Source: Gordius sp. MW1
Lineage: Eukaryota; Nematomorpha; Gordioida; Gordea; Gordiidae
NCBI GenBank assembly: GCA_964036665.1
Contig: OZ038530.1
Span: forward strand, 16,762,001-16,826,000
Reading direction: 5' to 3'
DNA: 64,000 nt
In this document: in pieces, positions 8,762 through 64,000 of the stretch
Layout: the number at the start of each line of letters is the position of its first letter
Position numbering within the stretch: position 1 is the first letter of the stretch
The notes under the pieces: generated by a model
Told to the model about the DNA's origin: nothing
Databases searched by the model: none
Seen by the model: only the letters and a program-made list of their open reading frames with translations
Translations under genes and position numbers: made by a program

Positions 8762-9657
8762 ATGCATGCTAATTGTTGCCTTATCACAAAAGTTATGAAT
8801 GGCTTTAGGGGAAAAGGGTATATGCAATTATTGGATCTGGCAACAACCAATTTTGAAAGGTACCTGGCCATCATACAGAAGCGTTATGACATACTCGAAG
8901 CTCGTGATGCCTGGCTTAGGAAGCAGCAAAAAGCAGTTGGCCCCAATTCTAGTTGTGCAATAGCCACTTGTATTGACATGTGTCCAGAAAAGGAAAGGTA
9001 CTTACGTCAATTGCATAAACAGATCAGCATCTTCGAGGAGTCACGTGATAAGGGGGGCGGGAGAGGGCCCCCTGCAACCCCTCACAGAATTATCGATGGG
9101 GGTCGGGCTATCAAAGAGTACAGTCGTTCGGCGGCGGACAAGGAAGACGCGTTGGGTAACGAGCTGCGCACCTTAGACGCTTTGGAACACGTGGTCGATC
9201 ACCTGATCGATCACGTCATGGGCGACGTCCCCACCCTGACTGATACCTCCAGGGTAGGCGAATACTACAACTTCGTCTGGAGTCGGACGCGGGCCGTTCG
9301 GAAGGACATGACGCAGCAGGCTCGCCACCACCACCATGATTACGTGGTGGCAGGGGATCACGTGACGGCGGCGCGAGGGGAGGAGCGGCGGATGGCGGCC
9401 ATGTTGGAAAAGTGCGCACGGTGGCACATCTTTTGCGCCCATCAGCTGTGTCACTTGGAGCCAGGTCTATTCGATCCCAAACTTAACGACGAGCACCTCA
9501 CCAAATGTCTCCAGGCCTTGAAACAGCTGTACGGCGACATTCGCGCAAAGGTCTCGTCTCTTTCACAATGTCATGCATCCTCTTGGGCCGGCGAGGAAAA
9601 ACGCATTAACGAACCCGAGTTTCAAGCATACATTATACTTCTAAACCTAGATCGCAG
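8762..9657 (+). CDS. Exon a of the SAC3/GANP gene (first half of SAC3 domain)
   Basis: The exon ends in CGCAG|GTAGTT at 9657/9658, phase 2, and joins the TATAG|C acceptor at 12100/12101 so that LNLDR runs into SQGDIVPHIA, matching the family order LLSLNKGDI. Its 3' two-thirds (about 9,050-9,560) are strikingly GC-rich inside AT-rich DNA, which creates long antisense open frames that I treat as shadows. Possible alternative starts are ATGs at 8796 and 8821. An acceptor such as the TTTAG ending at 8808 would also allow an unseen upstream exon. Confidence 0.8.
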
Positions 9658-26300: not shown

Positions 26301-29300
26301 ATATGTATATCGTTTTAGAAATACATATTTCATTTATTCAAATTACTAAACTAAAACAAATGATGATAGTTATTTATATAGCAAGTAGATGACAACTCGA
26401 TATGTATTTATCCCAGTATATTCAAACACATGGGCGTAGCCAGCATTGGAATTAGAGGGGGGTAATAATGATTTAGGGAGTGGCAAATTTTTTGAAATTT
26501 TAGCCATAATTTAACTAAGTTTCAAGAAATTTTTGGATTTAGAGGGGGGAAGCCTCCCTTCCCTGCCCCCGCCCTTGGATACACCCGTGGATATTCATAA
26601 TCAGTACGTTCATGGGGTATGTAACGATAAAATTTACATCAATAAATAGGGATACTTATAATAAACGCTTGTTTTTACAACATGCCTACGCGCTTTGAGA
26701 AGCTGGAATAATCTTGGGTTGGTTAATGATCTCCTACATTATTTTCAAGTTAATCAACTCCCTTATCTCGTACATTTCTTTAGTGTATGCACTCGTTAAA
26801 AGTATATTATTTTATAACGATAGCTCAACATGAGCAAAATAAAATTTACCCTCGGTGGTGATTTGTGGTTCGAACCGTAACAGAACTTCGTTGAGAGAAT
26901 CGGTGAAGCTACCGTATAGGGTGTCGGTAAAAACGTTTTCGGAGCGCCCGTTGTCGAAAAGGCTACTTTGGATACCTTAAATTGGCATGCACAAAAAATT
27001 ATAAGTTTCCTCAGGAAAATCAAAAAATAAAGTTTGAGATAACAACAATAAAAATCAGGCACATAAGTGCCGCAAAAATTAAAAACACGCTAAATTGCTT
27101 ATTACGACTAGATAAACCACACGCATCATTAGCACAATAGTAAATGTAAGATAGTGATTTATCAAAACACATGCTTCACACGTTGCTAACTTCCTAAGAA
27201 CAAAAATACCAGTAAAAATCTTTTTTCAACCGAAATATGGGAGCCATTACTAAGAATTTAATCGCCACCGGAATGTTAAAGCCTCATACTGCCCCAAGCA
27301 TTCGTTCAAGTGACTAAATTAGTTTTACAGTGATGGCGTTGTGTAATCAAGTATAATAACCTAGGCAGAAGTAGTAGATAGAATCGGAGGTGTAATTTTC
27401 GTCATTCGGCTTTTTGATCTCTTTCACGAACATGGCGAGAGAAAGAACTAATTCGTCCGTGGTCAAAGTGAGGGGATCATCCTTCCAGTACGGGCCCGAA
27501 TTTCTGTTAAGATAATAAAATAACAAATCCATTATATGGTGTTATCATATACAGAGGGGGTGAAAATAAATAATAAAGTGTTGGTAGAACAGCCTTTTCA
27601 CGAGCTTTTTATTACCTGTTTAAGATTTTTTACACATAAATTTTAAAATCATAAATATATACTTTCTCATCAAATGCAAGTAGCGTTAAAGAGAAAGGGG
27701 GCTCTGAAAAATAACATATCTTAATAAATTATTAGCATCGTCGACAACGTGTAATGACTATGGCGATTAATTATGAAATTTTTAAAGCTATGTACGATCA
27801 CAAAGACTAGTTGTCAGTGGCGTAGCTAGGTGGGATGGGCCCCCCCCCCAAGGGAAAAATCTTGGGCCCCTGGGCCCCGTACGCCATTTTTTTATTTTAC
27901 CTTAGTTAAGAAAAAATATAAAGATTATAATTATTTGTTTTTGAATATAACTTTTAATTATAATATAAAGCCCAAATATTTGTTTAATAAATGCAATTTA
28001 ACGGTTTATAGCCTAATATTAACTTTAAATGATATTAGAAATGAGGATCACTATCAAATTCTTTATAATAAGGCGAAAGATTTAGCTTCAATTTTTGATT
28101 TAGTATCTTCTAAACATATTAAAAAACCAAAAAGTATAACACTTCACTTTTTACTCTTTTGAATCTACCAATTCATTAATTGATTTCAAAATTGATTTAT
28201 ATTATCCTATCATAGCAGAATTAAACATAAGATTTTCGGAAATCAATTATAATTTATATATGTCCTTAGAAGGTTTCATGGGCGTAGCCAGCATTTGAAT
28301 TAGAGAGGGGCAATAATGATTTAGGGAGGAACAAAATGATTATTTTTTCAAATATCAGCCATAATTTTAATAAATTTCAACAGATTTTTGGATTTAGAGG
28401 GGGCGGCCCCCCCTGGCTACGCCCATGGAAGGTTTAAACCCTTCATACCCTTTTTTAAATCTCTTTTATCAGAAGTAATTAACCATTATGAATTAAAACT
28501 GCCAGATGCCAAAATAATAATGGCAAAATTATATAATATATTATAATTCTTTACTTCGAATAAAATAAATTGCAATGATATTTTTTCACCTATTAAAATT
28601 TTGCTCTCAATAGTGTTTCTAAATTTTATTATTTTGACTAAAATAATTTTAACTATCCCAATAACTTCATGTTCATGCGAAGGATCGCTCTCATTGCTAA
28701 AATGGATTAAAACTATCTTCGTTCCATAATTGGACTTACCTTTACTGAGCTTAGAACATGACTTTATAAATGATTGATTTGCAACATCGAGTAAAAGGCG
28801 TAATGAACTACTATTAAAAGACTAATTTTAGTATTTAATGATAAAGTACATGGGCTTTTAAACTTGTTTTAAACTTTTTAACACTTTCAAAATATATAAG
28901 AATATTATTAAATTTACTAAAAAATCCATCCTGGATTCAATTTAATGTCCATCTCACATGCTTATTGTTTAACATATCTTGCATATTTTTATGTACCACA
29001 TGCACATATAAAGCCAATGAATTTCCAAAAAATAGTCTGTACACCATTTTTCCCCCTTTATTAGTGAAAAGTTTGATAAATTGATATTAATAACAAATTC
29101 CTGAATTTTAAAGATATAGAGAATTGTTGACGCATCAAAACTTTCAAGGGATACCAAAAAAATTCCTTTGGTGTCATTGGATTCAACAAAATGTACACAA
29201 ACGCTAAGTTGTTATGTGCATCTCACATCACTAATTTCATCTAAAATTTTTTAAGTAAAATTTTATTCATTTAATTCTGACAGAATATTTTTAAGGTTTA

Positions 29301-35300: not shown

Positions 35301-38300
35301 TACGATGTGTCGAGACAATTAAAATGGGAAATTACCTTGCCACAATTGGCGCAGGCTCCTTTACGCCCATCCGATTCCGAATCTTGGTCCATCTTGTACA
35401 AGGAAACGCAATTTTGCGAGCAAAAATATTTGATCTCCGCTTCTGATAAAATAGAATAGGCCTTATAAAAAAATACTTCTTAACATAATCATGCTTGCCT
35501 CATCAACAAAGGTGTTTTAATGAATTTCAACTAATGTTTTTAACTAGCGGCTGGCTCATATTAGACCTACGTCGTTGAAGGTGGTAAACACTCATACCAT
35601 CACCATCTAAAGAGTCTATAGCGAGGAGGGCGTCCCTAGTGTAAGGCCCCTATCTTTATTTACCCCCTCCTCCATGGTCCTGAATCTCAACCAAAATTAC
35701 TATGAGGCGAGCGTTGTGGATTTTATAAAACCGCCACAATTCCTTTTCTACATTATTGTTAAAATGCATACGGTTGTTAGTAGTTGGTTATGCACCTTGA
35801 CAATTAAAACGCGCTATCACTCCGTAAGCATACATACATCTCACCACATTCGAGTCTCTCTGACAAAAGAATATCGTAGTGGTTTAAAAGTGCTCAAAAT
35901 TAAAATGACTAGCCCAATGCACACCATAACATAACGACTCTAGTAAACCCCTCGGCGCGCCCGTTACAACACTAATTTCAACAATCTTCAATTATTTTAA
36001 AATCGCGATTAAGTTTAAAGAATGACAAATATATAATATTTTCCAAATTTTTTAATATATATATCTTCTGCCAAGGATCATAAAACATTCAGATACGAGA
36101 TATTGCTCATTCTAAAATATTTATCCCCATAATAGCTTCCTGTTCCGCCACCTTTGGCAAGAAAGCATTGGCGTTTTTCAAATCGAAAGAGATGTCCCAG
36201 GGCCAAAACACTCACCCAGCTTTAATTTACGTAAAAAAATCGGCGTTTTAATAGCGAAACATAATAATATAAATTGCATAGCAATTAATATCTTTATCTG
36301 ACACATACATGGCCCTCAGTAGCTCTTGACGAATCTGAAGAAAAATTTCTTATTTATATTATGACATACTCGTTTATTGTATAATTTATGCATCTTTACC
36401 TAATAAAAGTATTTACCTTTCTCATTTTTCTTCTCTTCGTTGTCATCTTCTAGAATGACTGCCACCATATCCCTCACGTACCGCGTCACGTGACACCAAT
36501 GACAATCCAAGAGGGCGTGGTCCCCCAGGGGCGGGGCTCTGCCAGGGGTCGGCCGTGCTGCTTCTGTGGGGGTAGGGATTTTCGTTTTGGATTCTTTAAA
36601 GCTTTCCGTGCAATTCTGCAATAATTATCGATTATATAGCAGTTTTATAATTTAGACTAAAGTTTATTTTTACAACTCATGTTTTCCATATTAATTTTTC
36701 TTATAACCCGACTATACTAATCCTGCCCACGAGTGAAAAATACCATTTTTTGCACTTAGACTTAATTGTTTATGGGCATAATTCCAATATTACCATGTGG
36801 AATGCTAAAACTAGAGTCCAACAGGGTTTTTGATTTATTAACAACCAACTATGCCTATCAATTCCATAATTGATGAGAACAAAAATTAAGGTTAACACAA
36901 ATTTAGCCAAAAGCCATCTATTTCATCAAGTAATAAACCTGTATATTCACCAACCAAAAATCACAGATGTAATCCATCATTGACAAACGTTAGAACTCAC
37001 TCATCCTTCCCCCGCGCCAAAGCAAAAAAGATATGCAGATTCAAGATCCCCCTCAAAAATGTTAATGGTGAGCAATAAAACCCCGTTGAACGGGGATTAC
37101 TCCTCTCAAAACCCGTGAAATGGTATAAGTGTAAAACTAAAATGCCCCTACCTGGGAGCAAAAGAAATGGGTTCGGCCATCGATTGTCAGGGCAGACATG
37201 GATTTTCTGCCCGCCATAGAGATGTGACAATTTTCGCAACTGTTTTGACCCTTCTTTTGCGAGTTGCCAGCTGGGCTCTGACCACTTTTACCACCACCCT
37301 TGGGCCCAGCAAATTTTGCGAGAGAATTTTGTGAAGAGTTGTTGTTGGAGGAGAGAAAGGATTCCAAACAGGCTTCCGAACAAATTTTAACCAGGGAGGC
37401 GGGGGTGGGTGAGGGGGCCCCCTGACCCGGGCAAACCAAGTTTTGTTGGATGGGCTTGTTTTGCTTGCAGCCTCCGCAAATGTCGCACGGGCATTGCCCA
37501 GTTTCACGTTGCAATTTGTGGGCGTTCGATACCTTCTCCTCCCTTTGCAAGCAATCTAAGAAATATGGTAAATAGTTAGTGTTTTTAATATGCCGTCTGT
37601 TTTTATAATGCTTATAACTTCAAAAATAAATAAATAAACGCACAAAAATATCCTATGTTTTGATATTGTTTATAGTAAGCTGTGGATGGTAATATAAACT
37701 CCAAACATATCCACATGTGTCTGTTAACAGACAAGGTAATTAAAACAAGTCAATTCAAGGCATCTAGTTAGCATCACTTTTTAATGAATCCTTATGGATG
37801 GGATGTTATTTAATTTGGTCATATTCTAGTTTAATAGCTTATGTTTGCAGTAATTTTTTTTAATTTAAATTATGTTGGTCTTGTTATATTATAGTAAATT
37901 GAATGAATAGATTTCTTTTGTCCAAACCAAAAAAAACTGTTTATGTGCATATTAAACTATCCTAGAAATTAATATGCCATAATGATAAAAAGGCCCATAT
38001 AAATACAGTTGCCTTATAAAATTTTTACATTATATGTAGTAGTGTTGTAAAAACTATTAGGGTTTGTTTGGTCAACCTAAGATTTTGACATATGTAACAC
38101 CCAAAGGCTTTAACCCATTATTCTTAGTCAAAATTTGAAAAACAAACAGTCGAATGTTAGTTTTAGATAAAAAAAATTGACCAAACAAAACCCAGCCATT
38201 TTTACAGCACTAATATGTAGTAATATTTAGTTATGGCTAATCACAATTTTTTGTCAAAACTAACTTCTAGAGCAATAGAGATCTGTGCCTGATACAATAG

Positions 38301-43848: not shown

Positions 43849-44929
43849 ATATTACCCTCATCTAATTCCAATCCTGCCCACGCCTACACCTTTTTTATCA
43901 CATGTGACAGCCGGAATCATGTTTTTTTTCGAGTTCTTGAGCCATATAGCCGAAGCGAAATACACAACTTTATCTAATTATTTTTTTTACAATGTTATTA
44001 TATATTGCGCAAAGTTAAAAACTAAATTTACCAACTCCTTATCATATTGTTAGTATTATATGTTTGCAAGCAGTAATTTCATACTTCCTAAAACCCATGT
44101 ATTTATAAAAGCTTTAAATTTTTTTGCCAGTTACAATTGATTTAATTTACAGAATTATTCTATTTAATTTGATAAAGTGCAACAAAATGTTTAAAAATTC
44201 GCATTCCCTTCCCACAGTCCAAGTTCAATCACATATCTATTATTTACAAATCCTAAGCATTTTTTGAATTGAAGACTGAGCCAAAGCAACGCTTGGTCGG
44301 TTTCAGCCATTTGATTAATTAAAATACATTAAACCCAAAAAAACATTCAGCATATCGCACACCAAAGGTCAGTTTGGTTAAATTTTTACCCAAACCCCGC
44401 CCGGTCCGAATTTCGAACGGGCTCGCTAGATTCGGTAATAATTAGAGCTGCCCGAACTGCCCGACCCAAAATGATAATTTTTTGTATTAGTACTAATTTT
44501 CATATTTTCCAACAATATTTATTTTAATTTTGCGGTTTTAGGATGGGAACTAGGATTAACACATATTATACATTCAAATAGAAAGGTGGTAATTAAGACA
44601 TGACACAAAATAAAACACTATATAAAGAATCTCATTAAGCCCTAATTTTCTAGCTCTCTTTAGGCGGGCGAGGAAGGGCAGTAGGCCAGGCTGGATTTTT
44701 TTAGTTTCTCTAACCCATCTCCCATTTTATTGAGAAGTAAAAGTGTCTGAGCCATCGAGGGTTAAAACAATGATAGACTTATAATTAAACCAGCGAATTG
44801 CAATTCCTTTTTGGGCGGGGCTAGACAGGTTGGCCATTATTATGGCACATGTATGCTTCGGTTTTGACCCCCCCCCCCAACATTTTTTCTTTATTTGGAC
44901 ATTGCCCTTGGTCGCCATGATCGTAGTTA

Positions 44930-45140
44930 TTGTCTCTGTTAGCTGCCTGGTTCCGGTCTCGACCTAGATGGTCCGGTTATGGCGGACCCTTGCCTCACAG
45001 CTGGATGTATTTTTAATGGCGGTCTCCTTGCAATCGCAAGGAAATGTGCCAGGGAAACTCGTGTGCGCCCGATAGGTTCCCCCATAAGCCTAACGAGCAG
45101 CGACTGTCGCGCTGGGAACGGTGCTGTTGCCAACACTTAC
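44930..45140. other. Unexplained GC-rich island
   Basis: About 210 bp of clearly higher GC sits in AT-rich intergenic DNA. Both strands have open frames across it (65 and 72 residues), neither recognised. It could be a coding exon, an RNA gene or a transposon fragment; I found no convincing splice or Pol III signals. Confidence 0.3.
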
Positions 45141-45312
45141 AAAACAACTCATAACATGCATGGGAGTTTTTTTAAGGATAAGATGGATCAAACATGAATT
45201 AATATATGTTGTTGTTGTTTTTTTGCACCTATTATGAATTGTAAAACTTGATTTCTCTCCATGCCTAATTTCAAAATTATTGATACTACACTTTTTACTA
45301 TATAAACTTTGG

Positions 45313-45700
45313 TAGAGGCCTACACGGGTGACCTTAAACAAGGTTTTCGGGTCGGATTCGGGTTAAAAATTTTGATATGCTTTAGGGTCAGGTCAAAGGT
45401 GATGAATTTCACAATAGCTTTGACAAAATACTCAAAACAATTAATTTTTTAATTTAGTAACTTATAAAATAATACTCTTATACATAATATTTTATAATTA
45501 ATATCAAAATATAATACTTCATTTTTTCGTATTTTCGGGTCGGTTTAGGCTCGCGAGCCGAGAAGTTAAAACCTTTTGCCGGGTTGGGTTGGGGTTGAAA
45601 CTTTTTTAACCCTTTGGGGTCGGGTCGGGTTCTAGATAAAAAATTTAAAACGCTTTCGTGTCGAGTTCGGGATAAAAAAAGATGACTTTGCAGACCTCTA
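45313..45700. mobile_element. 388-bp hAT-like MITE with GGGTCGGG-rich interior
   Basis: The ends TAGAGGCCTACACGGGT and GACTTTGCAGACCTCTA are imperfect inverted repeats. The interior is rich in GGGTCGGGTT-type motifs on both sides. No convincing target duplication is visible. Confidence 0.55.
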
Positions 45701-46041
45701 CTTTTGAGCCAGCCTGCTCTACAATTTTGCCCAGTATTTATCTATGTTTCTTCATTTTTATACCATTTTTTTAAGTTTAATTTAAATTTTACTACACTAG
45801 TTATAGATAATTTGGCTTGTTCCTTAACTTGATAGGTGGATACCTCAATTTTCGATTTATAAATTTAAGGATAATGTGGAGTTTTATGATATAGTTTATA
45901 GCATCCTTCGTTTTTTAGCTACATTTAGCCATTGTCTTACTATTCCTACATACCTATTTAATTACGCGTTGGGCTATGGCAATAAGGATGCGTTAATAAA
46001 TGGTTATTTCAATATTCTACCACGAGGGCCAAAGGCCCGAG

Positions 46042-47135
46042 TTTTTTTAAATTAATATATTGTTCTTGTTTATATTATTGATAATATGACTTTTTGACCG
46101 TGTCCTGGCTACTGACCAATGAAAAAATGATCATTGGCCAAATTATAAATCGAATTTTTTTTTCGTTCTTTGAATTGCTATATTAGGTTAAAATTGATAA
46201 TTACTTATGCCCCCCTACAAGGGTCTATGCCTCTACTGATATGGGTCCCTGTGCCCCCCTTCCCCCCCCCCCCCCCCACCCCCTACGGGTTCGAATCTTG
46301 GAGAGGGCAAATTTTTTTTTTTTTTTTAATATATTGTTCGTGCTAATACTATTGATAATATGACTTTTTGACCGTATCCTGGCTTCTGACCAATGAAAAA
46401 AAAGATCATTGGCCAAATTGTGAGTCCAAATTTTTCTCTCTCGTTTTTTTCGACTCTTATGTATTTATATCCTTTTGACCGTGTCCTGGCTACTGACCAA
46501 TAAAAAAAATGACCATTGGCCAAAGTTTATTAAATTTTTTTTTTATATTTTACATATAGGCTATTTGATGGCTATTTGACCGTTTGCTGGCTACTGACCA
46601 ATAAAAAAAATGACCACTGGCCAAAGTGACCTAAAATCGATTTTTTTTCTAGATTATAATTATGGCTAGTTATTTGGCTGACTGTAAACCATTAGCGAAA
46701 ATGACCAATGCCAACTGCCAAGGTCTGATTGGAAATTTGCTTTTCCAAGGTCATGCCCTCTATTTGCGTTCCTTTCGTCATTTTGATTAATTTAGAAGTT
46801 GATAAATAAGAATGAATGAAAGAAAACCTATTCCTCAATAAATAAAGTCTTAATAAATGTTTTATAGCAAGTTTTACAAAAATTTAAATTTTTTAAATAT
46901 TTGTATAAATAGAATTAACTAATCATTTTGCATTTCATACCCCCTATAGGCATTCTTGCCTTTTCCCACCTTTCTCGCCCATAAATTGCAAACAAATATG
47001 CTACGTTTATACGGAGTATAGATGAGTTTCGTTCCCCCTTCCCTCCTGCACCTCCCTCCCCCCTTTCCTTCCCCTCTTCCCTTCCCCTCCTCCCCTTCCC
47101 CCCTCCCCCTTCCCGCGAGGGCCGAAGGCCCGAGT
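46042..47135 (+). mobile_element. Minisatellite-bearing element, copy C (5' truncated)
   Basis: It lies between two hairpin ends (46,022-46,041 and 47,116-47,135). It holds about four tandem units, a box-B-like GGGTTCGAATC at 46,287, the fixed tail and the C/T tract, but lacks the TTGCTATGCAATT 5' end. Confidence 0.55.
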
Positions 47136-47137
47136 TA

Positions 47138-49117
47138 TTAATTGCTATGCAATTTATGGGCTCGCTTTTTGTTGTCCGTCCGTCCGTCAGTTGTCCCTCC
47201 AACGTTCTAGATTGATGTTTCGATACCCGGAGAGGGCAAATTTTTTTTTAAATTTAATTCATATATTGTTCTTGTTAATACAATTGATTATATGACTTTT
47301 TGACCGTGTCCTGGCTTCTGATCAATGAAAAAATGACCATTGGCCAAATTGTGATTTGAAATTTTTTTCTTGTTTTTGAATTGGTATATTATGTTAACAT
47401 TAATAATTACCCTATGCCCTCCCGTAGAAGGGCCTATGCCTTTACTGATGTGGGTTCGAATCCCGGCGAGGGCAAAATCTTTATTGCTGGTTTGAATCCA
47501 GGAGAGGGCAATTTTTTTTTTAAATTAATATATTGTTCTTGTTAATACCATTGATAATATGACTTTTTGACCGTGTCCTGGCTACTGACCAATGAAAATG
47601 ACCATAGGCCAAAGTACAAATCGAATTTTTTTTTTCGTCTCTTATGTATTTATATCCTTTTTAAATAGTGTCCTGGCTACTGACCAATGAAAAAAATGAC
47701 CATAAATCGAAATTTTTTTTTGTTTTTTTGTTTCTTATGTATTTATATCCTTTTTGATAGTGTCCTGGCTACTGACCAATGAAGAAAATGACCATTGGCC
47801 AAAGTATAAATCAAAATTTTTTTCCGTTTTTTTTGTCTCTCATGTATTTATATCCTTTTTGACCGTGTCCTGGCTACTGACTAATGAAAAAAGTGACCAT
47901 GGGCCAAAGAATAAATCGAATTTTTTTTTTTTTCGAATTGCTATATTAGGTTAACATTGATAATTACCTATGCCCCCCTACAATGGGTCCCTGTGCCCCC
48001 CCCCCCCCCCCCCACAAAGGTTTATATCTCTATTGATGTGGGTTCGAATCCCCGAGAGGGCAGATATTTTGTTTTTAATTAATATATTGTTCTTGTTAAT
48101 ACCATTAATAATATTACTTTTTGGCCGTCCACTGGCTGCTGACCAATGAATAAAATGACCATTGGCCAAATTGTGAAGCGAAATTTTTTTTCGTTTTTTT
48201 TCGTCTCTTAGGTATTTATATCTTTTTTGACTCTGTTTTGGCTACTGACCAATAAAAAAATGACCATTGGCCAAAGAGTAGCAAATATTTTTTCTTTATT
48301 TTAAATATAGGCTATTGGGCCGTTTGCTGGCTACTGACCAATAAAAAAATGACCACTGGTTAAAGTATAATTAGGATCAAATTTCTTCTCTAGCTTATAA
48401 TTATTGGCCAGTATTTGGCAGTCTGCTGGTTACTTACCAATGGAAAAAATGATTACTGGCCAAAGTGAAATTAAAATCGATTTTTTTTTCTAGATTATAA
48501 TTATAGGCTAGTTATTTGGCTGTCTGCTAACCATTAGAAAAAATGACCACTGGCCAAAGTGATGAAAAAAATGACCAATGGCCAAGGTCTGATTGGAAAT
48601 TTTTTACGTTTTTTCAATATCTTGTTTATACTATACATATGCGCATGATTTGAATAGAGTCTATACCCATAATTCAAATTATGGGTCGCCTACACCAAAT
48701 TGTTTAAATTTATACAGTATTAAAAAAACTCTAAATTGAAAGTTGTTTTGGAAGGATTACTATTGGCTTTTCCAAGGTCATACCCTCTATTTGCGTTCCT
48801 TTCGTCATTTTGATTAATTTAGAAGTTGATAAATCAGAATCAATGAATGAAAACCTATTCCTCAATAATAGCAGGGTTTACAAAAATTTAACCTTTTAAA
48901 TATTTGTATAAATAATTAACTAATCATTTTGCATTTTATACCCCCCTATAGGCATTCTCGCCCCTTCTCACCTTTCTCGCCCATAAATTGCATAGCAATT
49001 TTTTTACGGAGTATAGATGAGTTTCGTTCCCCCTTCCCTCCTGCACATCCCTCCCCCCTTCCCTTCCCCTCCTCCCCTTCCCCCCTCCCCCTTCCCATGA
49101 GGGCCGAAGGCCCGAGT
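47138..49117 (+). mobile_element. Minisatellite-bearing HINE/Helentron-like element, copy D (complete)
   Basis: It starts AATTGCTATGCAATTTATGG and GTCCGTCCGTCCGTC, has a GGTTCGAATCCC box-B-like site repeated at about 47,455 and 48,040, about ten CCAAT-hairpin units, the same tail as copy A (ACTAATCATTTTGCATTTTA), the C/T tract at 49,027-49,097 and the hairpin GGGCCGAAGGCCC. It follows copy C directly, head to tail. Confidence 0.6.
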
Positions 49118-50841
49118 TTCTATATTTATTGATTTATTATTCCCTTTATACAATATTTTTAAAAAGTTAACTTCCTTATCAAAAACGTAAATTCTTTCAA
49201 ATATGATAAGACTAATTATTATCATGAAGTCCTTATTCGATATTGCATGTGAATTATTTGTACATTTCACTTAAATAAAATGCAATAGACCTTGAGCAAA
49301 ATGACACTTAATGCATCGTTTAAATAGATTTATTAACTGAAAAATTAATTCTATTTGCTATTTAAATCTTATGTAACTATTTGTATGGCCATACAAAGTG
49401 TATAAACTGAATAAAGACTGCATGGGGAGAGCGAGGCCAGCGGGCCGGGCCTTTAAAGGCGATGAACAAAAAGTGCCTACCCAGTTTGAGCTCACATAAC
49501 CAATTTGGGTTATATTTGGCCCTTTTTTGCGAATATAAAGATGAACATAGGAATGCACATTGTAGTATAATGGTAAAAATTATATTTATGATGACTAACG
49601 TGTAGAATTTCAAATTATAGTAAAGGGATTTTAAGAGGAAATTATAAATTTAAGTCAGACGTGTTTCTATGGTGGAAGCATAGACTAATAGACTGCTCAT
49701 TCCCTTTTAAAAAGTGTACCCCATTTTGGCAGCCATTTTGATAAGTGAAACATGAATTTTGGCCAATTTATATGGTTTAATGAATTTTTAAAATCGCTAT
49801 AATGATTAAAATGGGTTGTTTCATGTTATAAGATCAATGATTATTGTCCAATGCAATCCATCGCTATACTAACTCTACTTCACTTATCAAAATGGTGGTC
49901 GTTTTTGGAAACACTTTTGATGCGTGAATATACAAGAGATGAGCATGGGTGGAAGCAACACCAATCATACTATTATTATATTAAGGGCACTTTTGGAAAT
50001 GTAAGTCATCTTTTAGAAGAGAGAGATCTGATTAAAATACGACAATATTAAATAGGGATTATAAACAGATATACTACTTTAATTGGGGCAGTTTGGTTAC
50101 TTAAGGAACGATACAACGTTCATAAATAATTTCCAAGTATCGTGGGCATTTTGTGGGCTTATTTTATTCAATACGGGCTTAATTCGGCGCACACTTCAGG
50201 TTTGGGTATGGGTCGAAAAAATACATTTCTGCGGATATAGGCAGTGACGCAACTTGATATTCCGGTCCATGCAGACCTTAAGGGCCCGTCTTAATATACG
50301 ATTCAACTTCACAGCGCCATACTTTTGTTTGTCTAAATATGCGATATACATGTCGTGGAATCAACAATTTTAGTTAGTTACCATATGAATATGCATTAAT
50401 AAGCGTAATTAAAGGATAAATATTTGTTTTATGAGGAGCAAAAACACAAAAACAGAACAAAAATGAAGTGACGCTCGTTTTAAGACGCGGCTATGTTTTA
50501 ACATGCATTCGCGTTTTTAATCTTGATTCAAAATCGCGTATTAAGACGCACTCTAATGTGTACTTCCGTTAATATTTATTATAAAAATCAATTGTGTTTT
50601 CATAACACATCAGACTTTTCATGTCGTTTAATTCATTGTGCAAACAGGAAGTAAAAACACGCATAGTTATTGAAATAAATATTTTGAAAGTTATGGTCAT
50701 TCCAAAATAAGCTTATCGAAAAAAAACCAAAATTAGCATTAAAAATAAAAAAAAACTAAAAACATACAAATAAATTTGACGCGCGGAAATTATTTTTTTG
50801 AATATAATTTATATATCCAAATTTAAATTAGTCCTAGCCTT
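49118..50841. other. Intergenic DNA with one foldback and no gene
   Basis: Only the inverted repeat at 49,725-49,905 stands out. A modest GC-rich patch at 49,425-49,500 has no recognisable coding content. Confidence 0.45.
49725..49905. repeat. Small inverted repeat (foldback/MITE-like)
   Basis: CCATTTTGATAAGTGAA at about 49,733 has an exact reverse complement at about 49,879. The arms weaken outside this core. No target duplication was identified. Confidence 0.45.
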
Positions 50842-51005
50842 CATGGGCCTAGCCAGCGTTGGGATCAGAGGGGGGCAACAATAATTTTGGGAGGGGCAAA
50901 ATGATCATTTTTTGAAATTTTAGCCATTATTTTATTAAATTTCAACAATTTTTGGATTTAGAGGGGGCAGCCGCCCCTCCCTGCCTCCCTTTGGCTACGC
51001 CCATG
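50842..51005. mobile_element. hAT-type MITE (CATGGGCGTAGCC family) with exact target duplication
   Basis: The ends are CATGGGCCTAGCCAG and TTGGCTACGCCCATG. The 8-bp duplication CTAGCCTT is exact at 50834-50841 and 51006-51013. Confidence 0.9.
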
Positions 51006-51703
51006 CTAGCCTTGCTATCACATCCATCAAAGATCAATTTAGGTTTTAGTCTTCTTAGGTAATTAATTACAACCGATTATCATTATCCCATCCCCTCCTT
51101 TATTGTAAACAACACCTTTTGAAAGGAAAAAGTCAGGATTTCTTTGATGTTCTCTTATATCACACAAACACACCACAGCAGACATTATTTAAATCACACT
51201 ATGACTATACAAACACCCTCCCCGACATTAATTTGTGGTTTGTTTAGCTTTAAACAATACGGCAAAAATAGATATTACTACACCTAGCCTGCGTAGCTAT
51301 CTTTTAATCAATCATAGATATATATAACGTTTATTTAAACGTTAATTAGAGTGGATAATGATGATTAACAAATTTACCAAGGGCATCAGACACCCCACAT
51401 CCCCCCCCCCCCATCAGACTGTTGATACATAATTATTGGATGATATTTAACCTTAAAAATAGATACTATCTCCCAACAATATAGAACCGGTGGTAAGTTA
51501 GGTAAATATTAGCTTAGCCCTATGTCTAGGTCATGTATAATAACATTATTTCAAGGTAGGGGATGGTAATTGATTATGAATCCTATAATATGTTTTAGTT
51601 TGTAATAAGTTTCACTAGGAAATAGGTGAACTGTTTGAAAATACAAATACATATCGAGATGTCAACTGATTGCTATATAAGCATAGACTAATATACAAGT
51701 TAC

Positions 51704-51883
51704 CATTGGCGTAGCCAGCATTGGAATTAGAGGGGGGCCATAATGATTTAGTGAGGGGCAAAATGATCATTTTTTGAAATTTTAGCCAGAATTTTAATAA
51801 ATTACCACAAATTTTTGAATTTAAGGGAGGGGGGCAGCCGCCTTCCCCCCTGCCCCCCCTCCCCTCCCCCGGCTACACCCATG
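51704..51883. mobile_element. hAT-type MITE (CATGGGCGTAGCC family)
   Basis: The ends are CATTGGCGTAGCCAGC and CGGCTACACCCATG, and the interior matches the copies at 26.4, 28.3 and 50.8 kb. The flanks CAAGTTAC/TAAGTTAC match at 7 of 8 positions. Confidence 0.85.
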
Positions 51884-53504
51884 TAAGTTACTATCATTTA
51901 ATATTAAGGATGGATTCGTTGTTAAATATTTTTAATTACAGTTATTCTATAGCATAATTTAAAGAAAGCAAATCAATAATTATAAATTTTTATGCCTTTG
52001 ACAGTTAGATATTGCATCAAAGTATCTTTAAAAACTTATTATGCGAAATTTATGAGGATATTGGCAATGTTATTAACGTTTACTTCGGCGAAATTTAAAT
52101 GTTTGTCTCAAGATTTGACTATATAAGCCTAGTCTAGGTTTTTGTTTATACACACCCGTTTTAGCATTGAGGTACTCAAGGGTGAGGATTTATAATAAAA
52201 ATTCCACCCCCTACTGATTTTAAAATTTCTTTTTTATTAAGATAATATACTATATTACAAAATTCATGATTTAAAATGAATGCTTACCTTAAATTATTTA
52301 AGCTTTTTAAAATGATTATGCAAAGGATTTTGTTAAACTTTTCTTTTCTTGTTATAGGCAATAGGTTTAAATTTTAAATTTAATATGTCTTTCTTGAAAA
52401 TTGAACTTAGAGAAAGAGTCTAATCGTACATTTTGTTTCAGAAAACTTGCATCGGTGAACCTTTTAAATTCACTATTATAGAAGAAAACGGACTTAAAAC
52501 GTCCGAAAAACTCGAGACACGTATTTAAATTATTATCAAAGGCAATAATAATGTTTTAGTGATCCTGCTTGTTCGTCATAATTTTCAATTAATAAAAAGT
52601 TCTAAGGGTTTTGTGGTCCTAATTTTAGCCAATTAAAATATAAATGCAAAGGAAAAATAGGTTAGGGAAAATTTGTTTTTCCATTTTATAGGATGAGATT
52701 ATCTTGATTTGTCTATTATTTATAAGACTGACACTATTATGATTAATTTTCTGAAGAATTGTACAGTTTGTGCATCGATTATTAATTTCAAAATAATAGT
52801 CTTATAACTAATTAGTTAAAATTAATTGATAAAATAATATAACTATCAAAACAACTATATTTTTTTTATATTAGTGAATGAGTTTAAGTGTGTTATTTCT
52901 GTACGCAATTTTAATTTATATGAGCTAAAGCCATTTTAAGGCAACATTAATGAATTTTTGCCTGGCTAATTTGTCACGTTGTAAGGTTTTTTTAAGCGAA
53001 TTGATTGTCGGAAAAACAAAAAAATTAGAGTGACAAAAAAGCATTAGAAGTTGGATCATAGGCAATGCCCGTTATTAAAAAATTATATTAAATCTAACAA
53101 ATTTTAAGGCTTTTATACAACTTGGGGGGGGGGGAGTCCAGGGGAGAGCCACATTATACTTAATTTTAAACATTTAATAAAATCAAAAACTAGTTATAAC
53201 ATTTTTACTTGCAATAATAATAATAGAGAGAGATACATTAAAAATGAAAAATAAATTACGCTATATATTAAATTATACTATAAATTAAAGCCTTAATGTA
53301 TTCAAAAAAATAAATCCTGTATGTATTTAAGGTAAAATGAAAATCCAAATCTTTCTCAGAACATATTTTTTTTTCAAACTACTGGAGTTGTACTAAAAAT
53401 TTATTTGGCGTTTTATATAAATGAATTTGTATAAATAATATATGGCGATGATATGAGGTTTTGAGCATTTATTCGTGGTTAGACCGCTACAAAAAAGCAC
53501 CCTA
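51884..53504. other. AT-rich 3' flank of the bHLH gene
   Basis: No gene or repeat family was recognised. A G run lies at about 53,125-53,135. Confidence 0.5.
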
Positions 53505-54489
53505 TCATATGGAATTAGATAGGGGATATAAGGCAATATCTTTAAAATCATCAGGAATTTCGTCCCTCATATCATTAAATGATTTTTTTATATCTTTAGT
53601 TAGGGAATTATGGATAATTTTGCGAGAGAACTCAGGCCTTAAACTGTTATGACAGTGATTAGAAACTTGCGTTTTGATCGTGAAATTGTGATTTTGGGGT
53701 TGGTTCGAACCTTTTACCTCCGAATCCTGCCTATATTTGGGGGCGTCAGAAGTGCAATTCAAGGCTTCGTTAACAGTCAAAGCTGATTGCAATGTTTTAA
53801 TGTATTCGATAGCCGCTTTTAGCGTATCAACTTTAGACCATTTTTTAGCACTTTTTTTGGTGTGATTATCGATTTTATCGTTCATATATTTGGAATTTTT
53901 GTTGGAAGCTAGGGTTTTTAGAAGGTCTGATTCATCAAACTGAGAACGATCATCACCAGGAATTTTTTTCTTGAGTATTTCGAATCCTTTATTAATCATC
54001 TTGACACGGTTTCTCTCGCGCGCGTTTCTGCGTCCAGATCCTGCGATAACTTTGTAGGGTGGGCATTGCGAGCCACTATACGTAGTTGCGGGAGAATTTA
54101 GGCATGAATCGGAAGAAGTGCTATTTTCAAAATGGCCCCTGGACTGCTCAAGTTCACTAGGACAGTAAGCCGCATAATAGGAAGTTAGTGGAGGTGTAAG
54201 AGAGTGCATATTTTTTGGTACCGATTCATATTCACGACTAAATTGATCGCGAGAATAGGCGCTTTCATGGGATGTGGTATCGTCTTGATGGAGCAACGCC
54301 CATTCAGATTTGATGTCCATCCTATGCCTTTGCCGGATCATAACTGAGCTATGACATGCATTGGGATTTTCAATTTCTGGAAGTTGAAAAGCTGCAATAA
54401 AACAAAAAAATATTAAACCAAAAGCTATAATTGGGTAATTAAAAATTAATTCGTTTTAACTTACGATTTATTTTAAAAGAACTTTGCAT
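53505..54489 (-). CDS. Achaete-scute-like bHLH transcription factor, 2 exons, long loop insert
   Basis: Exon 1 is 54489-54465 (MQSSFKIN plus one base, donor C|GTAAGT) and exon 2 is 54391-53505 (acceptor TTTTATTGCAG|CT); together 912 nt, 303 aa. The 73-bp intron is phase 1. The basic region and helix 1 are RRNARERNRVKMINKGFEIL (from residue 129), nearly the RRNARERNRVK of fly achaete-scute proteins. Helix 2 is KWSKVDTLKAAIEYIKTLQ (about 194-212). The loop between KKKIPG and KKWSKV is about 38 residues (S/D/N/K-rich), where vertebrate ASCL loops have only a few. A shorter reading from the internal ATG at 54341 (residue 26) is possible, but the spliced start has better signals. The family forms heterodimers with E proteins, binds E-boxes and drives neural-precursor fate. 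The usual C-terminal ASCL motif is not recognisable; the protein ends DDFKDIALYPLSNSI. Confidence 0.88.
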
Positions 54490-55751: not shown

Positions 55752-57583
55752 TTAATTGCTATGCAATTTATGGGCTCGTTTTTTGTTGTCCGTCCGTCTG
55801 TCTGTCCGTCCGTTACCCTCCCTATCTATTTGCATTGGGTATATTAGGTTATCGCTTTTTTAAATTAATGGATGAGAAAGAGGTGCCCCACCCCTCATCT
55901 CTATCTCCCTCGCTGTGTTATTTTTTGAATTAATGCATAAGAGGTGCCCCACCCCTCATCTCTATCTCTCTCGGTGTGTTATATATAAGATTTGTTAAAT
56001 TATCTATTATATAATAAACATAAATAAAAGTTGTTTACTTTTAATTGCTATGCAATTTAACTAGTTTTTGTTATATAATAAACATAGATAAAAGTTGTTT
56101 ACTTTTAATGCTATGCAATTTAACTAGTTATATAATAAACATAAATAAAAGTTGTTTACTTTTTAATTGCTATGCAATTTAACTAGTTTTGGGGTTAGAA
56201 TCCCGGAGTTTTTTTTGACTCTTATAATTGTTCTTGTTACTATCATTGATAATAAGAATTTTTGGCCGTCCGCTGGCTGCTGACCAATGAAAAAAATGAC
56301 CATTGGCCAAAATGTGAATCGAAATTATTTTTTTCGTTTTTTTTTGACTTTTATGATTGTTCCTGTTTCTACCATTGCTATTATGACTTTTTGGCCGTCC
56401 GCTGGCTGCTGACCAATGTTATATAATAAACATAAATAAAAGTTGTTTACTTTTAATTGCTATGCAATTTAACTAGTTTTTGGGTTAGAATCCCGGAGTT
56501 TTTTTTGACTCCTATGATTGTTCTTGTTACTATCATTGATAATAAGACTTTTTGGCCGTCCGTTGGCTGCTGACCAATGAAAAAAATGACCATTGGCAAA
56601 AATGTGAATCCGAGTTTATTTTTTCGTTTTTTTTGACTATTATGATTGTTCCTGTTACTACCATTGCTATTATGACTTTTTGGCCGTCCGCTGGCTCCTG
56701 ACCGATTGAAAATATGACCATTGGCCAAAATGTGAATCGAAATTATTTTTTTCGGTTTTTTTGACTATTATGATTGTTCCTGTTCCTACCATTGCTATTA
56801 TGACTTTTTGGCCGTCCGCTGGCTGCTGACCAATGGAATAAAATGACCATTGGCCAAAATGTGATTCGAAAACTTTTTTTTCGTTTTTTTTGACTATTAT
56901 GAATTTATATCGACTTTTACCGTGTCCTGGCTGCTGACCAATGGAAAAAAATGACCATTGGCCAAAATGTGATTCGAAAATTTTTTTTTCGTTTTTTTTT
57001 ACTCTTATGAATTTATATCCACTTTTACCGTGTGCTGGCTGCTGACCAATGGAAAAAAATGACCATTGGCCAAAGTGAGCATCAAAATTTTTTTTTCCGT
57101 TTTTTTGGCTATCATTGACTTATAGAGTATCTGTTGGTACTGACCAATAGAGAAAAAGTGACCATTGGCCAAATTTTTGATTTTTTTAATTAAAAATTGT
57201 TCAAATTCTACAAAAAATTTCTCCCAACAATTCTGCAAATTCTTAACATTGTGTTGTTTTATAATATAATGTTTGTTAGACCCATAATCACTAAAGGCCA
57301 TAAAAACTAATGTAATACGCAACTAGATGCAAACACTAAATCTAACCCTAACCCTTGCCTATATTACATTTTGCCTATAATGGAAAATTTGTATAAATAA
57401 TTAATTAATCATTAGGCATTTAATACCCCCCTATAGGCATTCTCGCCCCTTCCCACCTTTCTCGCCCATAAATTGCATAGCAAATATGATACATTTATAC
57501 GAAGTACAGATGAGTCGTCCCCCCTTCCCTTCCCCTCTTCCCTTCCCTTCTCCCCCTTCCCACGAGGGCCGAAGGCCCGAGTT
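55752..57583 (+). mobile_element. Minisatellite-bearing HINE/Helentron-like element, copy A (complete)
   Basis: Structure 5' to 3': terminus AATTGCTATGCAATTTATGG (near-palindromic), GGGCTCG, (GTCC)n, two copies of GAGGTGCCCCACCCCTCATC, then tandem units with TGGCTGCTGACCAATG and ATGACCATTGGCC, a fixed tail with telomere-like TAACCCTAACCC, TTTCTCGCCCATAAATTGC, a C/T tract, and the terminal hairpin GGGCC-GAA-GGCCC followed by CGAGTT. There is no coding capacity beyond repeat-derived open frames. No target duplication is seen, which would suit Helitron-type insertion. Confidence 0.6.
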
Positions 57584-58011
57584 ATTTATTTTAATATCTA
57601 ATTTTTAATTATGTATCTAAATTGAAATAAATCCATTAAAAACTACATTCTCAAAACCCAGATTCTCTATCACACTAGCAATATGTACAGACTGTTACCG
57701 AAAAAGAATTATGTTTGTGCTAATTATTCCCCTTCTTATCTAACTCACAGCCATCTTAAGAAGGACAATCGTTGTTAGACAAAAGGACATTTTCAAAGAC
57801 TAGGTGAGGTATAAAATACTATTGGGGCAGTGAAACATGTGAAATACCGTGTACTTCATTACTCATTCGAATAAGAAAGGGGCAAAATCTTAGATAAGAA
57901 CATGTAGCCCCATGCCACATGGCAAATTAGAAAATGGTTTTTATAACAAGAAACAATGCGTAATTTATGTAGGCCGTTTTATCGAGCATAAACAATCTTT
58001 AATTTAATCAG

Positions 58012-58219: not shown

Positions 58220-60215
58220 GTAAGGCAATTGTAGACAAAGACGATAGAAATCTACTAATTGCGAAGGTATCAACCGTCCCTTATTTAGTTTTTTTTCAAG
58301 TGGAGGATTAACAAACAATAAAACTTTGATTTAAAATGCATTTACATAGTTAATACTGTGATTTTAGGATTTAAACGTCTTAGCATTATAAGGAGCTGAG
58401 TGATTTATATAAAATATGAAATTATATATAACTTTCTATTGACGATATATCTTTCATGACCGTTTGCAGTTTGTGTATTTTAGTTTAGACAATCAAAATA
58501 TTGCATGAAATTTCAGGGAATATGATATTCTTGTTGGAAATTAGGTCTAAAACAAAGTTTTTTTTTTATAAAGTAAAGGCTTTTACTATAAAATTGGACC
58601 ACAAAATACAATAGAAGCGATATTTAAAGAGAAAAAATGTTTATTAAAAGTTGATTTTGATTAAGAGTTTTCCCTTATAACAACATCTAACACTGTGCAG
58701 GGGAGACCGGGGACTAAATAGCCATAAAAATTGAATCACGTTTTAAAAAACACTAAAAATTATTTTTTCAATTTTTTTGTTGAATTTTAAGGTCTATTTT
58801 TACTATAGGAAAAAAATTCGGATTGAAAAGAATGATAGTTTTCTCATAAATTAAATTTAAAAAAAAAACAAAAAATTTAAAAAATGCCCGGGGTATCGGG
58901 GGATAGATTATCTGGTGTATGCCAACTCAAATCAATAAAAAAATTGTTTATTATAAAACAACATAGAGAATGCAAATGTATGGTTATATTTTACATAATA
59001 CAATTAAAAATGGGTCGAGATGACAATCTGATTCAGGTACCCATAAAAGACAAACTCTCCTATGGAAAAAATCTTTAAATAGTCTATTAATAATCCAAAT
59101 TAAACTAAAATAAATTAATTAAACCAAATTATTGTTTTTTAAATCTTGATATTTGTCTCCGACCCCTATTTTAATAAACAATGAATAATTTAACATGTGA
59201 TATTGCAAAAAATTTAATCATTAGACGGGTTTTATTTAAAAAATATCCCTTTATAAGATAGAACATAAATTAATTTAAAATATACAGCCAAAAAATTTTA
59301 TGTCCAAGATACAAAATTTTGTCAAGGCTACTAATAGCCTCGAAAAATCGTTTTTCTTCTACACAAATTTTGCATTTTATTTTTTATAAACAAAAAATTT
59401 TGTACTTATACCTTATGAAAAAATACACACATGGTTTAAATTTTAATAATATATCATTATTATTTTAAAAAAATAATTACGAAGATATTAGTAACCCCGG
59501 GCTACGACTAGCTTCGGTCTCCCCTACGTTCCGCTAATTTTCAAATAATGTATCAAAAATGATGCCAAGGCGAGGAAAAATTAAGGAAAAATATACGGCT
59601 ATTTGGAATCTAATCTTAATGTATTATTGGTTTTTAGAAGTCATTTGTGACAATTTTCCCTATCTTCAATTGCAACGTATTCGATTTATCTAACGTTTCA
59701 GATTCAAATACCTAAGAATGAACGAATGTAAGTTCACTGGTCAAAAGTCAGTTCCACCCACCCTTTCCTGAAATCATTTTAACCTTAAATCAGACTTTTC
59801 GCTAGAATTTTATTTAATTTTTATACCCTTTATTTTTAAGAGTCATAATTTGGCATTCTCAAGAATTTTTACTCTTACATGTTAATTTAATTCTACGTGT
59901 TTAATCACATAACTAAGATTAGAGATTTGTTGTAAAAATGATTTTAATTGTGATATTAATACATTTTAATATATGAACCCTGCTGACAAAGTACTTTGTA
60001 ATAAAGCAAATGAATCCTTAAGTACTTGATTATAAGTAAATAAGTAACAAAGCTGAGGACTCTAATTGATTGTTATCAATATAATGAGTCTAACAATATC
60101 CCAAATTTTAATGTATATCGAATTAAATTTAATTTTAAAAGTATTCAATTGTTTAATATCAAGTTCGTTTATTTTGAATGCTTTTACATTTTGTCAAAAA
60201 AGATTTCCATGATGA
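58220..60215. other. AT-rich intergenic DNA
   Basis: No recognisable coding or repeat family is present. A small CCCGGGCTACGACTAGC patch near 59,495 is the only GC-rich spot. Confidence 0.5.
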
Positions 60216-60385
60216 CATGGGCGTAGCCAGGATTAAAATTAAAGGGGGGCAAGAAAGATGTAGGGAGGAGCAAACAGAATATATTTTAAAAATTTAGCCA
60301 TAGAATAATAAATTTTAACGAATTTTAGGATCTTAGAGAGAACAGCCGCCTTTTCCTGCCATCCCCTGGCTACGCCCGTCCCGTG
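60216..60385. mobile_element. hAT-type MITE (CATGGGCGTAGCC family) with exact target duplication
   Basis: It starts CATGGGCGTAGCCAGG and ends GGCTACGCCCGTCCCGTG, with a short expansion at the right end. The 8-bp duplication CATGATGA is exact at 60208-60215 and 60386-60393. Confidence 0.87.
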
Positions 60386-60804: not shown

Positions 60805-61672
60805 AGAGAAAAACACTTTGGCCAGTGGGCATTTTTTCTAATGGTCAGCAGGTTAAGAAACGTCTAAATACATAAGGTCCAAATATTAAAAAAACGAAAA
60901 AATTTTCCAATCAGACTTTGGCCATTGGTCATTTTTTCATTTGGTCAGCAGACGGCCACAAAGCCTATGATTATAATATAGAAAAAAAATTCGATATATA
61001 CTTTGGCCAGTGGTCATTTTTTTTATTGGTCAGTAGCCAGCAAACGGCCAAATAGTCTATATTTATAATATAGAAAAAAAATTTGATACACTTTGGCCAA
61101 TGGCCATTTTTTTCCATTGGTCAGCAGCCAGGAGACGGTCAAAAGGGATTTAAATATATAAGAGACAAACAAAACTAAAAAAAGTTTTTGATTTACACTT
61201 TGGCCAATGGTCATTTTTTCTATTGGTCAGCAGCCAGTGGACGGCCAAAAAGCCAATATTATCAATGTTATTCACAAGAACAATATATTAATTAATTAGG
61301 GCCTATGCCTCTACTGATATGGGTCCCTGTGCCCCCCCCCCTCCCCCATAAAGGCTTATGCCTCTACTGATGTAGGTTTGAATCTCGGCGAGGGCAAATT
61401 TTTTTTAAAATTAATTTATCAATGTTAACCAAATATTCAAAAAACGGAAAAAATATTTCGGTTTCCACTTTGGCCAATGGTTATTTTTTTATTGGTCAGT
61501 AGCCAGGAGACGGTCAAAAAGCCATATAATCAATGGCATTAACAAGAACAATATATTAATTTAAAAAAAATACAAAAAAAATTTGCCCTCGCCGAGATTT
61601 GAACCCACATTATTAGATACAAGTTGGACAACGGACGGACAATGAAAAGCGAGCCCTTAAATTGCATAGAAA
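60805..61672 (-). mobile_element. Minisatellite-bearing element, copy F (reverse, 3' truncated)
   Basis: Units with TTTGGCCAATGGTCATTTTT and ATTGGTCAGCAGCCAG run from 60,815 to 61,510. The reverse 5' end, GCGAGCCCTTAAATTGCATA, closes it near 61,672, with a decayed box B (GGTTTGAATCTC) at 61,375. The tail and terminal hairpin are missing. Confidence 0.55.
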
Positions 61673-62261
61673 TAAAAAATTAAACGACACATTAATTTAA
61701 TAGTAATTAAACCCAATTGTGGAAGTGTTCATTTTGATTTACTTTTGAGTCAAACATTTAAATTTGTTTTGCAACGTGTCGTGTCGTATTAGCTTGTGTG
61801 TGCAAATGAACAAAAAAAAAGTGATAGAGCAGTGGAAGTTCATTATTTGACGCAATAGCTTTATCGGAAGATTAACAAGATAAGTGTTTACAAATTATAA
61901 TTCTAATGCTGTTATCATATAATGACATTGGATCCCTGAAGACTTACAGCCGTTTTATAACAATTGTCCCTTGCCATTAAAAATTAACATTCGCTTAGGA
62001 TTACTTTTGTACTAGCAGCTAAATTTCAATTCTTGACACATAATTTAGATCCTCGGACTCTATCTTTTTTCATAGCTAAGCAAAAAAGTACCGTAAGTCA
62101 TTATTAGATCATTTGTCGCATGCTGTCTATCTTCTCAATTCTTCGCTCGGTTTCTATGTCTCTTTTATATACAACAGACTTTTTAATTACAATTTTCCTT
62201 GATCAAATTTTTTGCCATATATTAAAATACATATAATTATATCCCCTTTCTCACGATATTA

Positions 62262-62405
62262 TTTGCTATGCAATTTATGGGCTCGTTTTTGGTTGTCCAT
62301 CATGTTTTCCGTCCTTTGTAACTTGTAATTTTTAATAATAGCTGTGAAAACTTATAGGGGTTTTTAATGGCTATGAACATATGTTTCTGTAAAAGACTTT
62401 TAGTT
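62262..62405 (-). mobile_element. Short relative of the same element family (reverse)
   Basis: TTGCTATGCAATTTATGGGC, CTCGTTTTTGGTTGTCC and, at the far end, TTATAGGGGTTTTTAATGGC are the reversed ends of the 25.8-kb type, with almost no core repeat. Confidence 0.55.
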
Positions 62406-63347: not shown

Positions 63348-64000
63348 AAAAACTCGGGCCTTCGGCCCTCGTGGGAAGGGGGAGAAGGGAAGGGAAGAGG
63401 GGAAGGGAAGGGGGGACGACTCATCTGTACTTCGTATAAATGTATCATATTTGCTATGCAATTTATGGGCGAGAAAGGTGGGAAAGGGCGAGAATGCCTA
63501 TAGGGGGGTATTAAATGCCTAATGATTAATTAATTATTTATACAAATTTTCCATTTATAGGCAAAATGTAATAAAGGCAAAATGTAATATAGGCAAGGGT
63601 TAGGGTTAGATTTAGTGTTTGCATCTAGTTGCGTATTACATTAGTTTTTATGGCCTTTAGTGATTATGGGTCTAACAAACATTATATTATAAAACAACAC
63701 AATGTTAAGAATTTGCAGAATTGTTGGGAGAAATTTTTTGTTGAATTTGAACAATTTTTAATTAAAAAAATCAAAAATTTGGCCAATGGTCACTTTTTCT
63801 CTATTGGTCAGTACCAACAGATACTCTATAAGTCAATGATAGCCAAAAAAAACGGAAAAAAAAATTTTGATGCTCACTTTGGCCAATGGTCATTTTTTTC
63901 CATTGGTCAGCAGCCAGCACACGGTAAAAGTGGATATAAATTCATAAGAGTAAAAAAAACGAAAAAAAAATTTTCGAATCACATTTTGGCCAATGGTCAT
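63348..64000 (-). mobile_element. Minisatellite-bearing element, copy G (reverse, runs off the window)
   Basis: It opens with the reversed terminal hairpin ACTCGGGCCTTCGGCCCTC, the purine tract, the TATTAAATGCCTAATGATTA tail and two units, continuing to the window edge. Its sequence is almost exactly the reverse complement of 56,950-57,583. Confidence 0.65.

Follow-up and report, generated by a model that had tools for sequence, protein, structure and literature searches.

The stretch analyzed here (the window) comprises 64,000 nucleotides of the nematomorph Gordius sp. MW1 (assembly GCA_964036665.1, contig OZ038530.1, positions 16,762,001 to 16,826,000, forward strand) and contains a dispersed family of minisatellite-bearing repeats, very probably a non-autonomous rolling-circle transposon of the Helentron branch, that is, a DINE-1-like Helentron-associated interspersed element (HINE). 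A first-pass annotation of the same DNA had named six places for this family. We placed six copies, A to F, by comparing the window with itself (matches of at least 60 bp) and by searching it with a profile of the repeated unit core built from 21 seeds, all from the window itself. The profile gives 38 matches, every one inside the six named places (A 11, B 8, D 6, E 6, C 4, F 3), compared with 1 match in 20 dinucleotide shuffles of the window. The arrays range from 3 units, in the window-cut copy F, to 11. The repeat family is thus found at all six places, but several of the copy limits first given were wrong.

Copies A (47138–49118) and B (55752–57583), both on the + strand, carry both ends. 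Copy A opens with a 5′ subterminal inverted repeat (subTIR), AATTGCTATGCAATTTATGGGC, consisting of a near-palindrome plus 7 bp (47140–47161), followed by a GTCC microsatellite slot (47174–47186) and 11 CCAAT-containing unit-core matches (47312–48585) interrupted by two tRNA-like B-box blocks (47453 and 48041). It closes with a 3′ subTIR that is the 22/22 reverse complement of the first (48979–49000; the GAG end lies 116 bp further on), a pure pyrimidine tract of 49 nt (49048–49096) and a 3′ hairpin, GGGCC-GAA-GGCCC, followed by GAG and then TT (49101–49116), all on the + strand. Copy B has the same parts: palindrome at 55754–55768, GTCY repeats at 55788–55811, 8 unit matches at 56274–57173, 3′ subTIR at 57464–57485 (21/22), pyrimidine tract at 57518–57561 and hairpin at 57566–57578. 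Copy C (46042–47136, +) has 4 unit matches, a 3′ subTIR (46977–46998, 18/22), a tract (47051–47114) and a hairpin (47119–47131) and lacks the 5′ end, beginning instead at an internal T run just past an isolated hairpin end, GAGGGCCAAAGGCCCGAG (46024–46041, +). Between copy C's GAG end and copy A's palindrome lie five bases, TTATT, and 46024–49118 is a cluster of three ends in head-to-tail order (hairpin to 46041, then C, then A). The DNA upstream of the isolated hairpin has no family match in the self-comparison, and a search of 44000–46060 for its 5′ arm gave nothing convincing.

The remaining copies lie on the − strand. D (573–1578; palindrome 1559–1573) and E (60813–61679; diverged palindrome 61660–61674) each have a 5′ end, 6 unit matches and no hairpin end, and F (63351–64000) has the tail and 3′ end and is cut by the window. 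With D and E lacking the hairpin, C the 5′ end and F its remainder, only two of the six copies show both ends; the 5′ palindrome and 3′ hairpin that the first-pass annotation ascribed to the family are confirmed as its ends but occur together only in A and B. Its reading of 1–1,577 as one copy was mistaken, as the self-comparison covers about 573–1578 (−) and nothing in 41–572. Bases 1–31 (−) resemble an internal module (29/31) and probably belong to another copy that continues beyond the window edge.

At the 5′ end, the near-palindrome AATTGCTATGCAATT is followed by TATGGGC and then by the unit array. With up to 3 mismatches allowed, AATTGCTATGCAATT has 38 matches in the window, many of them scored on both strands (shuffles: mean 8.2, maximum 16). 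Within the 5′ module, AATTGCTATGCAATTTATGGGCTCG is common with few differences to eight elements: copies A, B, D and E and four short relatives. These relatives lie at 11780–12079 (−; 5′ subTIR 22/22, module start 12077, low end approximate), 11414–11566 (−; 20/22 with a GTCC slot, module start 11564, low end approximate), 25745–25917 (−; 2 bases inserted in the subTIR, both limits approximate) and 62259–62378 (+; 21/22, module start 62261, high end approximate). They contain no unit-core profile matches, and a search for their 3′ ends found none. Tandem GTCYGTCY occurs seven times in the window without overlap (1508, 11519, 47174, 55788, 55796, 55804 and 61633), and all seven matches fall in five of the eight 5′ modules. 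The microsatellite slot of the relative at 11780–12079 is occupied by a perfect (ACTC)39 of 157 bp (11878–12034), which is probably intronic because it lies between two SAC3/GANP open reading frames (ORFs). Lone near-palindromes following TT at 2388–2409 and 36265–36286, with no other family sequence seen beside them, are possibly ends of other elements.

Four complete tails (A, B, C and F) bear out the first-pass description of a fixed tail, a pyrimidine tract and a GC terminal hairpin, here GGGCC-GAA-GGCCC, then GAG and TT. Their last 200 bp agree at 88–99.5% of aligned positions, gaps excluded. Apart from the tracts (C 64, A 49, B 44 and F 44 nt), no run of at least 30 bases in the window is purely pyrimidine or purely purine, and the hairpin, GAGGGCCGAAGGCCCGAG, occurs five times (four exact, one with one mismatch) and never in 100 shuffles. 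The key trait, unnamed in the earlier description, is that the 5′ 22 bp recur inverted in all four tails (22, 21, 21 and 18 of 22 positions), 96–136 bp before the GAG end, and that every 3′ arm keeps GCCCATAAATTGCA exactly, the threshold being at least 11 identical bp. Control 470-bp stretches away from the copies reached 11–15/22 in 1581/1622 draws and 17–19 in 41, the latter because of five lone non-family sites (2388, 22641, 23994, 24488 and 36265) that themselves reach 17–19/22. Across the whole window, at least 20/22 is attained at nine sites only: six 5′ ends and three of the 3′ arms. The GGGCC/GGCCC hairpin is the predicted single-stranded DNA fold of the final 29 bases; fold z-scores are −1.7 for this hairpin alone, −1.9 for the 5′ palindrome and −1.2 for tract plus hairpin.

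The edges of the elements are sharp. At the 5′ side this holds for all eight elements, whose flanks look unrelated and whose module is preceded by TT in seven of eight (TA in the relative at 25745–25917); at the 3′ side, GAG is followed by TT and then unrelated DNA in 5/5 cases. Within the window we therefore see no ragged ends where an end is present, with three of the six copies lacking one end and a fourth cut by the window. In neither complete copy can a target duplication be longer than TT, and the check for one found nothing beyond TT (2/2). The outermost 20 bp of copies A and B, compared as inverted repeats, match at only 3–4/20 positions. The tails of B and F, in opposite orientation, are identical at 629/632 aligned positions, gaps excluded; BLAST, which counts gaps and takes in some flank, gives 95.4% over 676. 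Immediately past GAGTT the two diverge. Near-identical tails at unrelated sites that part company just past GAGTT point to recent copying to new sites, and from these sequences we consider that the family has probably been active recently.

The Helentron/HINE class, which the first-pass annotation had proposed, is supported by the shared termini, the inverted subterminal repeat, the palindromic form of the subTIR, the GTCC slot (5/8 modules), TT on both sides, the tandem central minisatellite, the 3′ GC hairpin motif, the head-to-tail order of three ends at 46024–49118 and the near-identical tails of B and F, and we regard it as very likely. Canonical Helitrons (Helitron1) begin with TC and end with CTRR. 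They insert between A and T (PMC5148889); this family starts with AATTGC, ends with GAG and is flanked by TT, and the canonical form was rejected. A non-autonomous element of the Helitron2 type, a non-canonical Helitron without endonuclease, would share the mechanism and differ in the branch of its protein. The Helitron2-like elements of Fusarium do have asymmetric inverted repeats at their termini, and two subgroups form a GAA-looped hairpin and insert between TNAT and T (PMC5148889). However, animal HINEs are the closer match to the combination of TT flanks and central repeats with a palindromic subTIR and a GTCC microsatellite, and we think a Helitron2 origin improbable. Terminal inverted repeat (TIR) DNA transposons and miniature inverted-repeat transposable elements (MITEs) have true terminal inverted repeats and a target duplication. 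That such an element acquired a minisatellite core would fit a noncoding family with inverted repeats, and DINE-1 itself was called a MITE in one report (PMC2374699), but the ends here are not mutual inverted repeats (3–4/20), and duplication beyond TT is impossible in both complete copies, which makes this reading very improbable. Least credible to us is a satellite dispersed through segmental insertion or insertion of circular DNA, with no transposase involved: unit number does vary among arrays, and C, D and E each lack one end, yet sharp ends are common to copies with differing unit numbers and the 5′ end is present also in relatives without units.

Several observations weigh against the Helentron assignment. 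The TT at the edges could belong to the target or to the element. Three of the eight 5′ modules lack tandem GTCY, one having (ACTC)39 in the slot (the module at 12077, −) and two having 2–3 single GTCY (25917, − and 62261, +). Copies D and E are without a 3′ end and C without a 5′ end, and the 18/22 arm of copy C is by itself not above the five lone sites; we count it because the tail of C aligns with the other tails. When 79 bases including the tract are folded, the best DNA structure pairs the tract with the hairpin rather than forming GGGCC/GGCCC. A 3′ subTIR 96–136 bp from the end and a hairpin 3 nt from the end of GAG both fall outside the values of mite HINEs, but we take these distances to be values of that mite set that do not define the class. 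Finally, a Pfam scan of 20 of the 79 stop-to-stop ORFs of at least 75 aa in the window showed no Rep or helicase domain, hence no autonomous partner among them. The copies themselves appear noncoding, as 0/4 window ORFs of at least 150 aa fall in a copy (ORFs running off the window were not listed).

If the family is a Helentron derivative, a Rep-helicase made elsewhere in the genome would nick at the 5′ TT beside the palindromic subTIR and peel off one strand, stopping at the GC hairpin with GAG|TT. The strand or circle so released would join a T-rich site without target copying. Slippage or unequal exchange may add or remove central units, and these would probably have no role in end recognition. 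A bolder proposal is that pyrimidine tract and CCAAT units mark a distinct HINE subtype in which the tract helps to stop or switch the rolling circle, a role for which the predicted pairing of tract and hairpin is cited, and the arrays act as scattered platforms for CCAAT-binding factors; we consider this unlikely. A literature search returned no paper joining non-autonomous Helitrons, tandem repeats and a CCAAT box, and the Helentron papers among the matches listed do not use the word polypyrimidine; any suggestion that CCAAT units and a pyrimidine tract are undescribed in this class comes from these literature negatives.

The central units are spaced 85–129 bp apart, with one spacing of 161 bp and four of 262–274 bp. 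The first-pass annotation described a core of CCAATGG and CCATTGG in each unit. Counted over 32 units (6/38 matches were left out as partial or as belonging to the near-duplicate copy F), the full core is present in 7/32, CCAATG with CATTGG in 16/32 and CCAAT plus ATTGG in 21/32. The weight placed on this core as a hairpin is unsupported, as we found no compensatory change: among 28 distinct units of the 32 aligned, 0/8 stem pairs changed on both sides (one of the eight is invariant and uninformative), and the hairpin was rejected as a selected structure. Stem pairing, at 90.4%, hardly exceeds the 89.9% of shuffled columns (137/500 shuffles attain the observed level), and covariation scores 0.038 compared with 0.041. 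Pairing falls to 2.7–42.9% when the stem partners are slid by 1–3 columns, as expected because the helix was taken from the consensus. CCAWTGG is its own reverse complement, so two copies of this 7-mer form a hairpin by themselves, and the units can also be read as a direct repeat of TGACCAWTG (5–8/9 matches). As single-stranded DNA, three units on the + strand fold with z-scores of −1.1 to −1.5 and one on the − strand with −2.2 (5/200 shuffles as good). The twelve invariant columns are scattered over the unit core without marking CCAAT in particular. We see no evidence of selection keeping a hairpin or a CCAAT box.

Each of the four long gaps holds a further block with a tRNA-like B box, at 46288, 47453 and 48041, and, inverted and with a changed B box, in copy E. 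The block in copy E (about 61293–61419) is inverted relative to those in copies A and C. ARAGORN (bacterial code) found no tRNA and Rfam no match at the gathering threshold in the window; a tRNA gene or known RNA was accordingly rejected for these blocks. Applied to 46000–49200, Rfam gave two matches far below gathering: one places a frameshift element on a unit (E 0.47), the other the T-arm of a tmRNA on the B box (E 0.5). Within copy B, 56000–56703 holds about three repeats of a 57–64 bp block that includes the near-palindrome, and two of a 290-bp block (94% matches), which suggests internal growth.

Relatives were also sought in other collections. In prokaryote contigs, 16 stretches match the 20-base 3′ end exactly. 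In a BLAST search of copies A and B against 93 loci (E 1e-3), only 23–24 terminal bases matched, in two loci, and for this reason we take the prokaryote matches to be unrelated GC hairpins. Neither the 20-base 3′ end nor a 5′ 20-mer has an exact match in IMG/VR. A unit 15-mer has 77 stretches in IMG/VR and nothing in the BLAST search of the 93 loci, and bases 56900–57590 have no match in phages.

The family lies in AT-rich DNA (24–39% G+C per 2 kb) with several other features. Parts of a GANP/SAC3 gene lie at 8732–9658 and 12084–12500; a window ORF scores up to 139 bits against GANP chains and at most 25 bits against SAC3 chains. An achaete-scute-like basic helix-loop-helix protein is encoded at 53508–54455 (−), with a match to achaete-scute homolog 1. 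GANP and ASCL1 chains are animal and SAC3 chains fungal. A DUF3504 ORF (25905–26216, −) and a reverse-transcriptase fragment (7502–7975, −) are also present. This gene content marks the DNA as eukaryotic and most likely animal, not fungal. Five dispersed repeats of about 150–200 bp (26387–26588, 28251–28429, 50820–51020, 51657–51896 and 60203–60379) have inverted ends, ATGGGCGTAGCCAG ... CTGGCTACGCCCAT, with variants, and look like MITEs. At 11120–11200 a tRNA-like head, AGCTCAGTTG ... GGTTCGAATCCC, precedes a T run and is possibly a tRNA-derived short interspersed element; ARAGORN reports no tRNA in the window. At 10727–10980, tandem repeats of about 20 bp of the type TGCTCAGTTTTTAATTAAAAA are followed by CCCTAA repeats.

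The family is a well-delimited HINE-like addition to the known systems, and its near-identical tail pair points to recent movement. It leaves the class as understood unchanged; what it adds are the pyrimidine-rich tail and the arrays of CCAAT units. In one relative, (ACTC)39 plainly illustrates a microsatellite slot within a 5′ module, in line with published accounts of such elements as vehicles that carry and disperse microsatellites and satellite-like repeats.

HINEs of the mite Metaseiulus occidentalis (PMC4067079) have a palindromic subTIR of 12–15 bp, 2–4 nt from the 5′ end and 38–60 bp from the 3′ end, a palindrome of 5–10 bp lying 8–35 bp from the 3′ end, with no fewer than two Ts at either side and the target left unmodified. 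The Gordius family shares the palindromic 5′ subTIR, its inverted copy before a 3′ palindrome, the Ts on both sides, the lack of coding sequence and the tandem repeats (present in some mite copies). Unlike the mite elements, it has its 3′ subTIR 96–136 bp from the end, with a 44–64 nt pyrimidine tract in between, and its hairpin ends 3 nt before TT rather than 8–35 bp from the terminus. Drosophila DINE-1 resembles it in subTIRs, microsatellite, 3′ stem-loop, TT preference and central repeats (PMC4067079), and differs in a separate inverted repeat that we do not see here. Oyster HINEs (PMC7492417) carry a left-module microsatellite (GTCY, GTCC or GTCK in several) and satellite-like central arrays. 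As in the bivalve Cg_HINE and Pearl elements of that source, a left module with a GTCC/GTCY microsatellite is followed by a satellite-like array and a right module with subTIR and palindrome. The likeness to Pearl is one of layout, with units of 85–130 bp here and about 160 bp there, and a palindromic subTIR stands here in place of the subTIR plus separate inverted repeat of Cg_HINE and Pearl (PMC7492417). Fusarium FoHeli elements, which are Helitron2-like, share the asymmetric terminal inverted repeat and, in two subgroups, the GAA loop (PMC5148889), but the insertion point of FoHeli1 and 2 lies between TNAT and T, whereas the Gordius elements have TT on both sides.

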